DNA from: Casimicrobium huifangae
GTDB taxonomy: Bacteria > Pseudomonadota > Gammaproteobacteria > Burkholderiales > Casimicrobiaceae
Reading direction: 5' to 3'
Assembly: GCF_009746125.1 (NCBI RefSeq)
Contig: NZ_CP041352.1
Span: forward strand, 124,001 to 188,000
Length of the DNA stretch: 64,000 nt
Shown: in pieces, positions 223-6,105 of the stretch
Position numbering within the stretch: position 1 is the first letter of the stretch
Layout of the letters: each line of letters begins with the position of its first letter
Program-made: the position numbers and the translations under genes
The notes under the pieces: generated by a model
What the model saw: only the letters and a program-made list of their open reading frames with translations
What the model was told of the DNA's origin: nothing
The model's database searches: none

Positions 223-454
223 ACTGGCCCGAGGCCACAATCGGCTGCGCGCCCTGATCGAGTTCGCCGTCGGCGAAGGCTGGCACGTCAAGCGCACGGC
301 GGGCGGTCACCTCAAGTTCACCAAGGCAGGCTGCGCCGCGATCTACACCAGTTCGACGGCCAGCGATCACCGGGCAGCCCTCAACGCCCGTGCGCAGATC
401 CGTCGTGCCGAGCGCGAGACCCGATCCCAAGCGCAGGGGGGCGGCCATGACTGA
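206..454 (+). CDS. shi: Small HicA-like protein, shi position
   Basis: 82-residue protein starting at ATG 206, chosen because a strong AGGAGG lies 5 bases upstream (196-201). It contains a GWxVKRTxGGHLKF segment (about residues 23-38) that resembles the core of HicA-type dsRNA-binding-fold proteins. It sits between parA and the parB-like gene and overlaps both, as the short gene shi does in the ICEclc bistability operon. The symbol is given by position. Whether it acts as a toxin, an RNA-binding regulator or a dispensable spacer cannot be told; the catalytic His of HicA (GGH) is present. Confidence 0.6.
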   Translation: MANAHELARGHNRLRALIEFAVGEGWHVKRTAGGHLKFTKAGCAAIYTSSTASDHRAALNARAQIRRAERETRSQAQGGGHD

Positions 455-2075
455 GATCACCTCCCAGCAGATGGCCGGCAAACTGCTTGCGTCCGGGTTC
501 GAGCGCAGCGGCCCGTCAGCAACGACCTTGAGCGACCCGATCGCCGACACGCCCATGGTCGTGACGCTCGACCAGTTGCGCCCCTACGACCACGACCCGC
601 GCAAGAAGCGCAATCCGGTGTACGAGGAAATCAAGGCATCCATCCGCGAGCGTGGCCTGGACGCGGCTCCGGCCATCACCCGGCGGCCCGGCGACGATCA
701 CTACATCATCCGCAATGGCGGCAACACGCGACTGGCAATCCTGCGCGAACTCTGGTCGGAGACCCGGGACGAACGTTTTTTTCGGGTCTCATGCCTGTTC
801 CGCCCATGGCCCGAGCGTGGCGAGATCGTCGCGCTCACCGGACATCTTGCGGAAAACGAACTGCGCGGTGGCCTCACCTTCATTGAGCGCGCTTTGGGCG
901 TCGAGAAAGCGCGCGAGTTCTACGAACTGGAAATCCGCTCCACCCTGAGCCAGTCCGAGCTGGCCCGCCGCCTGGCCGCGGACGGATACCCCGTGCAGCA
1001 GTCGCACATCAGCCGGATGGCCGACGCCGTACGCTACCTGCTGCCCGCAATCCCGACCGTGCTCTACGCCGGCCTGGGGCGTCACCAGGTCGAGCGGTTG
1101 TCGGTCATGCGCAAGGCCTGCGAGCGCACCTGGGAGCACTACGCCAAAGGCCGCTCACTGGTTCAGGACTTCGACGAGTTCTTTCAGGATGTGCTGTCGC
1201 AATTCGATGTCCAGGCCGACGAGTTCTCTGCGCAGCGCGTACAGGACGAGCTGATCGGCCAGATGACCGAATTGCTGGACGTCGATTACGACGTGCTCGC
1301 TTTGGACATGACCGAGTCCGAGAGCCGCCAGCGGGCCTTGGTCAGCGAGCCGACGCCGCCCTCGACGCCGCCTGCCTTGCCAGAGCCAGAAGCCATCGCG
1401 CGCCCACCGGCCGATACTGCGCCACCTGCTGCGAGGCCGACGGCAACGCCCTCGACGGGCGAGAGCGACGCGGACGCCAGTCATTCTGGCGCAGCCAGTC
1501 CGGCGGTAGATGACGACGTGCTTCGGGAGCACATCGTCTCGCCAGCGCCGACGACCGAACGGCTTGAGTCCATCCAGCGCATGGTCGCCGACCAGTTGGG
1601 CGATCCACTGCCGCACGACTTCTCGGCGAATGTCTTGCAGTCCATCCCGGTGCAGGCCGGCGGGCTCTATCCGATCTCGGATGTCTGGTACATCGCCCCC
1701 GGCCTGGACACACCCGAGCACCTGCGCATCCACGTCGCGCAGTTTGCCCGCGAGATTGCGGTCGAGGCAGACCTGGGCGAGTGCATCGATGACCGCCCAG
1801 ACGGCATCGGCTTCGCCTGCCGTGCTCGCACCACAAACCCAGCGCCGCTGGGCCGTGCCGTCCATACGCTGTTGGCTTGCCTGGCCGGTCAGCAGCCCGC
1901 CGATGTCGGTCTGGACAACGGGCAACTCGTCATCGACCTGCCGGCGCTGCTGCACGGCCAGGGCGACGTAACCCGACGATTGAGCGACACCGCGCTGGTC
2001 AAGCTGTTCCGCCTGCTGCGACTGGCCCGCCGCCTGCTCGATCTCGAAGCCGGCGCTGCGGACTCTGGAACCTAA
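447..2075 (+). CDS. bisD: ParB-like ICE regulator (BisD type)
   Basis: 542 residues from ATG 447, which overlaps the previous gene by eight bases; a longer in-frame extension from 390 is less likely because the overlap with shi would be larger. Residues about 30-130 form the ParB N-terminal domain (LDQLRPYDHDPRK, IRERGL, then IIRNGGNTRLAIL), followed by a helix-turn-helix region (SQSELARRLAADGYPVQQSHISRM split around 175-200). A Pro/Ala-rich linker (about 290-370) leads to a second conserved domain. This is the PFGI-1 ParB family (TIGR03764). In ICEclc the equivalent BisD works with BisC as the master activator of transfer genes, so a regulatory rather than partition role is inferred. Confidence 0.85.
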   Translation: MTEITSQQMAGKLLASGFERSGPSATTLSDPIADTPMVVTLDQLRPYDHDPRKKRNPVYEEIKASIRERGLDAAPAITRRPGDDHYIIRNGGNTRLAILRELWSETRDERFFRVSCLFRPWPERGEIVALTGHLAENELRGGLTFIERALGVEKAREFYELEIRSTLSQSELARRLAADGYPVQQSHISRMADAVRYLLPAIPTVLYAGLGRHQVERLSVMRKACERTWEHYAKGRSLVQDFDEFFQDVLSQFDVQADEFSAQRVQDELIGQMTELLDVDYDVLALDMTESESRQRALVSEPTPPSTPPALPEPEAIARPPADTAPPAARPTATPSTGESDADASHSGAASPAVDDDVLREHIVSPAPTTERLESIQRMVADQLGDPLPHDFSANVLQSIPVQAGGLYPISDVWYIAPGLDTPEHLRIHVAQFAREIAVEADLGECIDDRPDGIGFACRARTTNPAPLGRAVHTLLACLAGQQPADVGLDNGQLVIDLPALLHGQGDVTRRLSDTALVKLFRLLRLARRLLDLEAGAADSGT

Positions 2076-2090: not shown

Positions 2091-2651
2091 ATGTCCACAG
2101 CACACCCACTCAACCAGGCTGTCATCGCCCAGGCCCTCTATGACCTGCGCAATGGGCAACTGCGCCGCTGCAAACTGATGGGGTTTGGCGAGGCAGAGCT
2201 GGACGCCCTCAAGCATCCCGCGCTGATCAGCGTGCTGGCCAACGCCAACGTCTCCTGGTGCTCAGTGACGGTCAACCGCGAAGTGCTGCGGCGGCTGCTC
2301 CAGCAGGCGCAGGACGTGGAGAAGGAAATCGCCACAGTCGATCGCATGCTCAGGCTGGGCGCGAGCACGGAGATGGTCAGCAAGTTCTATGGCTTGACGC
2401 ATCAGGAAGTAGCGCTTCGCCGTGAAATCCTCGGTCTGCCCAAGCGCAAGGGCCGACATCCCGTGCTGGACGAGGAGCAGGACACGGAGCTGTGGCGGCA
2501 ATGGAAGGCCGTGACCAACAGCAGGACGGTCGATCTCGAAGACGAAACCTCCATTCTCGATGCCGCCATGGACTTGGCCGAAGGCATGTCGCTGCCTCTG
2601 TCGGTGGTCTGGGCCTCGATCAAGGGCTGGGTCGATCAGGGATTGGCTTGA
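2091..2651 (+). CDS. bisC: DUF2857 / FlhC-like regulator (BisC type)
   Basis: 186 residues, 15 bases after the ParB-like gene, with GAGG-type ribosome binding sequence before the ATG. It belongs to the DUF2857 family found in nearly all ICEclc-like elements. The middle of the protein (about residues 80-125, GASTEMVSKFYGLTHQEVAL) reads as a helix-turn-helix segment of the FlhC kind. In ICEclc the homologous BisC forms the BisDC activator with BisD that switches on excision and transfer promoters and feeds back on its own operon; the same role is inferred here from identical gene order. Confidence 0.8.
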   Translation: MSTAHPLNQAVIAQALYDLRNGQLRRCKLMGFGEAELDALKHPALISVLANANVSWCSVTVNREVLRRLLQQAQDVEKEIATVDRMLRLGASTEMVSKFYGLTHQEVALRREILGLPKRKGRHPVLDEEQDTELWRQWKAVTNSRTVDLEDETSILDAAMDLAEGMSLPLSVVWASIKGWVDQGLA

Positions 2652-2654
2652 GTC

Positions 2655-3899
2655 ATGGCCGTGGACGACACCGCACCACGAGTCCGACGCCAAGGCCCCA
2701 TCGCACTCGCAGAGCTGTTCGATGCTGCGCTGAAAGACCTTGCGCCCAAGCCCGCCCCCAGCGCACCTGCGCCTACACCGGCACAGTCGCCCACGCCTAC
2801 CTCCGGCGATGCTTTCCTCTTCAGTGGCAACCGGCACGAGACGGTGCCACGCAAGTTGTTCCTCGACCGCCGCCTGACGCCGCTGGAACGAAACGCCTGG
2901 CAAGTGTTCCGGCTGATGCTCAACGACGATGGTGTGACCGCATTTCCCACCTACGAGCAGTTGCGGCCCTGGCTGGCGTCCATGCCCTGCGCAGGCCAGG
3001 CCTCGCATGAAACCGTGGCACGGGCGCTGACACTGATGCGCCTGACCCGCTGGCTGAGCCTGGTTCGGCGACGGCGTGACCCCAAGACTGGCCGCATCCT
3101 CGGCAATCTGTACGTGCTGCACGACGAACCTCTGACACCGTTCGAGGCCATGCAGCTCGACCCGGACTACCTGCAACTCGTCAGCCAGGCGCTCGGCCAT
3201 TCTGCCAAGGCCGTGCAGATCGTGGGCCTGCACACGCTCAAGGAAATCGGTGAAGACCCATTGCTGGCCGGACGCACCCTCCCGTCACGGTTGCAGGTGA
3301 TGGCCGAACGCCTCGCCAACCAGGACCTTACGGCCAGCGATAGTTATCCACAGGAAGACGCCATTCACGATTCCGAAGAAGGGGCTCCGAGCCTTCTTCG
3401 GAATGACGAACGCCCCACTACGGATTCCGAAGCAGGGCCGAAACCCGCGCCAGACGTCTCTCTTCGGAATCCGAAGCAGGCCCGTACAGTACGTAGTAGT
3501 TGTATTAATGAAATACGTACTACTGCGCAGGCGCGCGCACTGGACGATCTGCAATGGCCCAAGCGCTTTGCGCAACTGAAGGCGGAACAGCAGGCGGGTG
3601 CCAAGGTGGCATTGCAGCAGGTTGATGCCTCGCTGAGGCAGGACGTGCTGGACGAATGGGCCGCGCGTTGTAGCAACCACGGCATCCGCAATCCCGCTGG
3701 GTATCTGTTCGGCATCATCCAGCGGGCCATCCACGGTGAGTTCAATGCCTGGGCCAAGAAAGACCCGCCACCGGCACCCACTCAGCCAAACGAACGGCCA
3801 CCACCCGCACCACCACCCCAAACGCAGGGTAAGCCGGTGCCACCAGAAGTCGCCAGGCAGCACATCGAGCGACTGCGAGATCTGCTCGCCAGCAAGTGA
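2655..3899 (+). CDS. STY4528-family pathogenicity-island replication protein
   Basis: 414 residues, starting 4 bases after bisC. The N-terminal part after a Pro/Ala-rich stretch (residues 60-200: RKLFLDRRLTPLERNAW, then SHETVARALTLMRLTRWLS) is a winged-helix type DNA-binding region of plasmid/phage initiators. A low-complexity linker (about 225-290) precedes a C-terminal helical domain (about 290-370), and the end is Pro-rich. Family members are annotated as STY4528 island replication proteins. The linker DNA carries a DnaA box, iteron-like repeats and an AT-rich block (see separate entry), the arrangement used by lambda O-type initiators whose origin lies inside the gene. It probably initiates replication of the excised circle. 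Confidence 0.8.
   Translation: MAVDDTAPRVRRQGPIALAELFDAALKDLAPKPAPSAPAPTPAQSPTPTSGDAFLFSGNRHETVPRKLFLDRRLTPLERNAWQVFRLMLNDDGVTAFPTYEQLRPWLASMPCAGQASHETVARALTLMRLTRWLSLVRRRRDPKTGRILGNLYVLHDEPLTPFEAMQLDPDYLQLVSQALGHSAKAVQIVGLHTLKEIGEDPLLAGRTLPSRLQVMAERLANQDLTASDSYPQEDAIHDSEEGAPSLLRNDERPTTDSEAGPKPAPDVSLRNPKQARTVRSSCINEIRTTAQARALDDLQWPKRFAQLKAEQQAGAKVALQQVDASLRQDVLDEWAARCSNHGIRNPAGYLFGIIQRAIHGEFNAWAKKDPPPAPTQPNERPPPAPPPQTQGKPVPPEVARQHIERLRDLLASK
3344..3524 (+). other. Candidate replication origin inside the initiator gene
   Basis: Seen directly: a perfect consensus DnaA box TTATCCACA at 3344-3352; repeats of the core GATTCCGAAG at 3369-3378 and 3423-3432 in direct orientation, the inverse CTTCGGAAT at 3396-3404 and 3462-3470, and an overlapping AATCCGAAG at 3468-3476; 3370-3382 and 3392-3404 form a perfect 13-bp inverted repeat; then an AT-rich block 3484-3524 in an otherwise G+C-rich gene. 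Box, iterons and AT-rich unwinding element in this order, in the coding linker of a replication initiator, is the organisation of lambdoid origins. Function is inferred. Confidence 0.6.
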
Positions 3900-3943: not shown

Positions 3944-3966
3944 GAGCTATCCCCTGGGGATAGTTC
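3944..3966. promoter_or_regulatory. 23-bp palindrome, copy 1 (one mismatch)
   Basis: Half-sites GAGCTATCCCC and GGGGATAGTTC around a central T; one base differs from perfect symmetry. Same sequence family as the palindromes at 4076 and 6083. Likely a dimeric protein-binding site. Confidence 0.7.
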
Positions 3967-4075: not shown

Positions 4076-4098
4076 GAGCTATCCCCAGGGGATAGCTC
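4076..4098. promoter_or_regulatory. 23-bp palindrome, copy 2 (perfect)
   Basis: Half-sites GAGCTATCCCC and GGGGATAGCTC around a central A, perfectly symmetric, 118 bases upstream of the PFL_4669 gene. Candidate site for the BisD/BisC regulators or for the replication protein. Confidence 0.75.
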
Positions 4099-6082: not shown

Positions 6083-6105
6083 GAGCTATCCCCAGGGGAT
6101 AGCTC
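6083..6105. promoter_or_regulatory. 23-bp palindrome, copy 3 (perfect)
   Basis: Identical to the copy at 4076-4098 (half-sites GAGCTATCCCC and GGGGATAGCTC, central A). It lies in the 269-base space between ssb and topB, about 205 bases before the topB start, and may control topB. Confidence 0.75.

Follow-up and report, generated by a model that had tools for sequence, protein, structure and literature searches.

An origin of replication proposed within the STY4528-family gene of an ICEclc-type integrative element

Where does an integrative and conjugative element (ICE) of the ICEclc type begin its replication once it has excised? The question arises at a 64,000-nucleotide stretch of Casimicrobium huifangae DNA (contig NZ_CP041352.1, positions 124,001 to 188,000 of the forward strand; the window in what follows), in which a gene of the STY4528 family of replication proteins occupies 2655-3899 on the forward strand; ICEclc-like elements are predicted to lack an origin in the passage of PMC9298801 that deals with them. 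The encoded protein of 414 amino acids matches the NF040582 profile (STY4528_fam) over residues 53-365 with 403.9 bits, the curated cut-off being 130. A sequence-only reading of the window had proposed that an origin is hidden inside this gene, at 3344-3524, and our analysis supports that interpretation as far as sequence comparison can carry it. We consider it probable that the ICE uses the STY4528-family protein as its replication initiator and that this protein's gene harbours a theta-type origin, in the segment encoding an interdomain linker. A lambda-O-like initiator with an in-gene iteron origin is thus our best reading of the sequence data.

The elements on which the proposal was built are all present at the positions originally assigned to them. 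An exact DnaA box, TTATCCACA, lies at 3344-3352 on the forward strand and is unique in the window, where 0.13 would be expected per shuffled window; taken alone it is weak evidence, because shuffling the codons of the gene produced one in 75 of 2000 cases. The window contains 8 matches to the repeat GATTCCGAAG when at most one mismatch is allowed, where shuffles average 3.66 (3 of 100 reach 8), and 5 of these 8 matches fall within 3369-3476, a number to be compared with a codon-shuffle mean of 0.94 for the gene and attained by only 2 of 2000 codon shuffles. Five repeats had been described, and five matches of this type do exist, but two of them are overlapping halves of a single palindrome, CTTCGGAATCCGAAG, and we therefore count about four iteron sites. 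Site 1 (3369-3382, forward strand), in which the half-site GATTCCGAAG is extended to a 13-base-pair (bp) arm, and site 2 (3392-3405, reverse strand), an inverted half-site, were found by repeat search and are under synonymous constraint; they contain the perfect 13-bp inverted pair 3370-3382 / 3392-3404. Site 3 (3418-3432, forward strand), also found by repeat search, is the imperfect palindrome CTACGGATTCCGAAG, and site 4 (3462-3476) is the perfect palindrome CTTCGGAATCCGAAG, its centre 44 bp from that of site 3. The proposed unwinding element, an adenine-thymine (AT)-rich block at 3485-3524 with the inverted arms AGTACGTAGTAGT / TACGTACTACT, has a guanine-cytosine (GC) content of 30% over 40 bp from 3485, the minimum among 1206 such stretches of the gene; relative to the window, which averages 63% GC, it ranks in the lowest 0.006%. 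This arrangement, an initiator gene with repeated sites next to an AT-rich element, is the layout of an iteron-type origin, and the lambda-type arrangement that had been invoked holds as well: the iterons and then the AT tract lie between the sequences for the N-terminal and C-terminal domains, in the segment for residues 225-294 (3327-3536, forward strand), which is predicted to be disordered with a predicted local distance difference test (pLDDT) score below 50.

Among close relatives, this region is constrained at the level of the DNA. The best 80 of 387 confirmed places, together with the window, yielded 48 distinct genes, of which 27 differ mutually by more than 3%; one gene (L081), whose reading from the start of the match stops at codon 100, was excluded. 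Across the 41 codons that overlap the DnaA box, the repeats or the AT block, synonymous diversity among the 27 is 0.033, versus 0.268 in the rest of the gene, and when the mask of these boxes was shifted circularly along the gene, a value as low was obtained in 1 of 413 shifts and in none of the 295 shifts that moved it by at least 60 codons. Conservation of the protein is no explanation for this synonymous freeze, because the residues encoded by the boxes vary about twice as much as those of the N domain (amino-acid diversity 0.090 vs 0.046). Synonymous diversity is 0.00 in site 3. Of the four spacers, all drift (0.28-0.45) except one, a stretch at 3435-3461 between sites 3 and 4 to which no motif could be assigned and whose diversity is as low as that of the boxes (0.02). 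All 48 distinct genes retain a AGTACGTAGTAGT-like arm, 47 the exact DnaA box and 46 a perfect palindrome.

The same position recurs across the family. Relatives were drawn from named plasmids (33 records matched, 13 taken), from 369 genomes of the class (29 matching) and from 398 of the phylum (22 matching); ICEclc of strain B13 is not among these sequences under that name, the E. coli genomes gave no DNA match, and viral contigs contributed 4, 1, 1 and 4 loci, partly on the same contigs. Before counting, we removed genes with a total below 75 bits or fewer than 350 amino acids as well as the duplicate loci L133-L135, and frames sharing mainly the C domain were scanned separately. The 69 genes scanned, which reduce to 34 clusters at 80% identity, were each searched on both strands for clusters of 10-mers (1 mismatch, 250 bp) and compared with 60 protein-preserving codon shuffles. 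In 28 of the 34 clusters the strongest repeat cluster lies inside the linker, and 20 of the 34 exceed all 60 shuffles, 18 of those 20 in the linker. Among 41 neighbouring genes scanned in the same way as controls, none has 5 or more copies and one goes beyond its shuffles, as compared with 19 of 34 family clusters with at least 5 copies. Linkers of homologues do contain iteron clusters, a check that the sequence-only reading had named for itself. For 32 of 35 genes the linker, which averages 23% of the frame, also holds the frame's lowest-GC 40 bp. Weaker linker sites are visible by eye in L141, L088, L089 and L092 and were left uncounted. In a distant member (L121, listed as L200; G461, contig 3) the stretch inspected has no clear iterons, while gene order is kept and the linker limits are estimates.

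What is common to the clades is a centre-aligned design with differing half-site cores: TCCGAAG in the window, TCCGAAC or GCCGAAC in the pKLC102 type and Enterobacterales, TTGGAAC in ICEHin1056, and elsewhere TTTGAAC, TTTGCAC, TCTTAAC and others. Centre spacings of 44/45, 33 and 54 bp, near multiples of 11, make up 47 of 78, some of the 78 coming from poorly resolved genes. The AT block is framed in many members by inverted arms of the GTAGTAGT / ACTACTAC or TACGTA type. Its TAGTAG motif is counted 46 times against 10.1 in codon shuffles and is present in 14 of 35 linkers, where it adjoins iterons and not DnaA boxes; by analogy it recalls the DnaA-trio, described in the relevant parts of PMC10797057 and PMC8287927 as 3'-(G/A)AT-5' repeats adjoining a DnaA box. 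In both pKLC102 and ICEHin1056, palindromes that would correspond to published putative oriVs sit inside the STY4528 gene.

Which protein would read these repeats? Structure models divide the window protein into an N domain (residues 50-224; 2802-3326, forward strand; pLDDT 83.5 in an AlphaFold model of this part), the disordered residues 225-294 and a helical C domain (residues 297-370; 3543-3764, forward strand), which may be a contact for a helicase or for the host and which has a similar counterpart behind the Phage_rep_O N domain of a protein discussed below. The N domain is modelled in the helix-helix-helix-strand-strand order that we read as a winged helix, and this fold together with half-site co-variation makes it the proposed iteron binder. 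Half-sites could be read in 30 of 35 genes (L081, L088, L089, L092 and L121 were excluded), and the distances between them follow those between the N domains (rho 0.56, 0 of 2000 permutations) and hardly those between the C domains (0.13), the partial correlations being 0.56 and -0.12, respectively. The sequence-only reading had proposed to test whether repeats change together with the initiator's DNA-binding domain while the linker protein drifts, and both parts are borne out, the second by the roughly twofold residue diversity of the boxes. The permutations leave the tree unmodelled, and the co-variation figures consequently rank candidates and are no proof of contact.

One rival possibility is that the repeats form a centromere (parS) for the ParB-family protein encoded two genes upstream (390-2075, forward strand; TIGR03764, 402.7 bits). 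A parB gene and a DUF2857 gene adjoin the STY4528 gene in 34 of 35 members examined; in the window the DUF2857 gene lies directly 5' of it (2091-2651, forward strand; PF11198, 213 bits). Across the 27 genes with both neighbours (L142, L094 and L095 additionally excluded), the raw half-site correlations are 0.40 for ParB and 0.44 for DUF2857, sizeable values that common descent predicts. Given the N domain, they fall to 0.05 for ParB (556 of 2000) and 0.10 for DUF2857 (310 of 2000), whereas the N domain retains 0.39 given ParB (0 of 2000) and 0.34 given DUF2857 (2 of 2000). When only 83 random N-domain columns were used, the correlation averaged 0.47 with a minimum of 0.33. By these correlations the likeliest reader of the repeats is the protein's own N domain, and with a second palindrome set downstream of the gene available as an alternative parS, we regard a ParB centromere in the linker as improbable. 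Still harder to credit is that the DNA repeats are a by-product of codon usage in a repetitive linker peptide of the S-D-S-E type. Several sites are indeed read in one frame in some clades (SSDSELS-like), but the last site is read in a different frame, inverted sites occur, and shuffling codons while preserving the protein destroys the repeat pattern for the window gene and for 20 of 34 clusters. For the window clade, where synonymous sites are frozen while residues vary, coding as the sole explanation is refuted.

Two further alternatives take their support from published work on ICEclc, whose copy increase in P. putida required TraI and oriT1 according to the pertinent results in PMC6561031, where rare cells with 4 foci nevertheless persisted in the mutants. 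The repeats might be operators through which the STY4528 protein only regulates its own or downstream transcription, with replication proceeding from oriT by way of the relaxase. Operators within genes are possible and regulators typically use palindromic sites; these sites, however, lie 0.7 kilobases (kb) into the gene, share their linker with a lowest-GC stretch that would be superfluous for an operator, and show recurrent spacings of 33, 44/45 and 54 bp, so that we think this explanation unlikely. Slightly less likely again is that the sites are the remnant of an ancestral plasmid origin, rarely or never used by ICEclc-type elements that rely on oriT; the published TraI/oriT1 dependence would fit, but the strong constraint is found within the ICEclc-type clade itself.

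The dependence on TraI and oriT1 also speaks against an active in-gene origin, as do a number of our own observations. In 4 of 34 clusters (L141, L088, L086, L089) the best repeat cluster lies outside the linker, 2 (L100, L121) could not be placed by the profile, and 14 of 34 fail to exceed all of their repeat shuffles. When flanks are included, the lowest-GC 60 bp is in the linker at only 5 of 13 plasmid loci, and our script flagged inverted arms in 20 of 35 linkers. The number of palindromes was dropped as a test statistic: in the window gene it is uninformative (5, with a shuffle mean of 4.38; 28 of 60 shuffles reach 5), and just 15 of the 34 clusters have a count that surpasses 95% of their shuffles. 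An exact DnaA box is present in only 4 of 35 family linkers. The earlier suggestion that homologous linkers would carry iteron clusters or DnaA boxes thus stands for the clusters and not for the boxes, which we have rejected as a family-wide feature. Foldseek searches with the full model and with the N domain alone returned no significant match to a named fold, and a sequence search of solved structures gave no match up to an E value of 1. Finally, pPant4, a plasmid with a second replication initiator, led us to drop the argument that STY4528 is the sole Rep on circular plasmids. In favor of the proposal, the pKLC102 record, which describes its own gene table as incomplete, shows no further initiator within bases 1241-103532 besides a 'STY4534 family ICE replication protein'.

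We nevertheless favor an in-gene origin, and a mechanism can be proposed for it. After excision, dimers of the protein, through its winged-helix N domain, would occupy the palindromic iterons at 3369-3476 with a phasing in multiples of about 11 bp, and DnaA would sit on the box at 3344. Together they might open the AT block at 3485-3524, after which the C-terminal domain would recruit the replicative helicase, in this element presumably the host DnaB. Of 35 members examined, 12 have a dnaB gene in the module, and no exact DnaA box occurs in any linker of the clusters to which these 12 belong. For the window clade, no dnaB was found beside the par module in its own genome (12 kb upstream of the window) or at five close loci. 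Elements without a helicase of their own may use DnaA to bring in host DnaB, although 4 boxes among 35 linkers make this no more than a lead.

The surroundings of the gene fit an ICE. The window module has the order parB - DUF2857 - STY4528 - PFL_4669 - DUF3158 - SSB - topoisomerase III, as in ICEclc/PFGI-1-type ICEs, a frame directly upstream that spans the window start reads like ParA, and a long frame further upstream resembles an ICE integrase. Downstream of the STY4528 gene, the 23-bp palindrome GAGCTATCCCC(A/T)GGGGATAGCTC occurs in three copies (3944-3966, 4076-4098 and 6083-6105) and in none of 100 shuffles, and 76 of 79 close loci have at least one copy with at most 4 mismatches; immediately 3' of the gene, members of the pKLC102 type and some Enterobacterales have palindromes arrayed in tandem, of roughly 57 or 36 bp. 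This downstream set is a candidate for parS or for a second half of the origin. Variant genes were also encountered. At L120, a second STY4528 frame with the N domain only (2669-3184, forward strand; 172 amino acids) lies directly 3' of a full-length gene and is possibly a competitor or regulator. Among the frames sharing mainly the C domain, 3 of 19 rows (L104, L107, L122) have a repeat cluster beyond all 60 shuffles. L122 is a C-terminal fragment with stops in its upstream part, and L104 (1189-2505, reverse strand) encodes a STY4528-type C domain preceded by six AGTTTGCCCC-like repeats that exceed every codon shuffle; close to its end the protein weakly matches DnaA_N.

If the proposal is correct, it names a cognate origin for a widespread family of ICEs and genomic islands (ICEclc, pKLC102, ICEHin1056 and SPI-7 types), members of which are in print, in the passages concerned, as having no predicted origin (PMC9298801) or encoding no Rep protein (PMC2647930). 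It would also explain why one part of the gene is variable in protein yet frozen in DNA. Judging from these sequences, origin switch and initiator protein appear to have co-evolved in many bacteria, and the 30 pairs of initiator and half-site provide material for reading the recognition code. Whether excised ICEs replicate from a theta origin or by the relaxase becomes directly testable by silent mutations. As to novelty, the sequence-only reading had regarded an in-gene origin for this family as not known to be described. That needs qualification, because palindromes with the same core have already been called a putative oriV in PFGI-1 (PMC2647930, in the section on that element), but the family-wide position inside the gene does look new, as do the DNA-level constraint, the co-evolution and the ICEclc branch; in a literature search of titles and abstract openings, none described an origin inside a STY4528 gene.

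The closest comparison is with the O gene of lambda, in which, according to the part of PMC7466680 that describes it, iterons (four in lambda, six in Stx phages) and an AT-rich tract occupy the middle of the initiator gene, just as they do here. The likeness extends to one protein, L107 (G074, contig 9; 469-2001, forward strand), which couples a Phage_rep_O N domain (1.8e-11) to a C domain similar to that of the STY4528 family (E value 2.5e-5) in a single frame; the repeats between its two domains exceed all codon shuffles. Unlike lambda O, the window protein has no match to PF04492 (Phage_rep_O), a DnaA box stands beside its repeats, and its context is an ICE with parAB. The repABC plasmids likewise have their oriV, with an AT-rich region, within the initiator gene repC (PMC3155836, in the passages on the origin), and share the order parA-parB-rep. 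Sequence links to RepC are partial: of its domains PF03428 and PF11800, the latter (RP-C_C) is weakly matched in three relatives (E values 0.045, 0.17 and 0.11) and not in the window protein, and an hhalign comparison of RepC with the N part of the family reached a probability of 75.6% across 54 columns. The repC of p42d differs in having neither iterons nor DnaA boxes in the account given there, and the STY4528 module differs in including DUF2857 and, in some members, dnaB. The STY4528 protein thus looks, by analogy, like lambda O and RepC in build, with the origin within the initiator gene. Very tentatively, and with the odds in our view against it, STY4528, lambda O-like initiators and perhaps RepC might share one ancestral class, a self-contained cassette of initiator plus origin that moves between phages, plasmids and ICEs, in which iterons and N domain co-evolve in one frame and a TAG-trinucleotide unwinding element acts with a plasmid-type initiator as DnaA-trios act with DnaA.

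Among integrative elements, the putative oriV of PFGI-1 consists of four 23-bp palindromes, CTGAGTTCGGAATCCGAACTCAGT, upstream of PFL_4669 (PMC2647930). The description in that source differs from ours in making no statement that they sit in a gene and in reporting no Rep protein; from gene order, PFL_4668 is presumably a STY4528 homologue. In ICEHin1056, iteron-like repeats in an AT-rich region were called consistent with the oriVs of pKLC102, SPI-7 and PAPI in the passage available from PMC2258188, and orf5, which by gene order looks like its STY4528 homologue, was named ssb-like in the part of a 2013 study that covers the module and was outside the six genes disrupted there (PMC3739013). 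SGI1 differs in that its oriV lies downstream of rep and outside the gene, in that an initiator of the RepA_C type is implied, and in its control by a helper plasmid (PMC7433901, in the sections on rep and oriV), but there too an integrative element combines iterons, a DnaA box and AT-rich regions, in that case proven by deletion.
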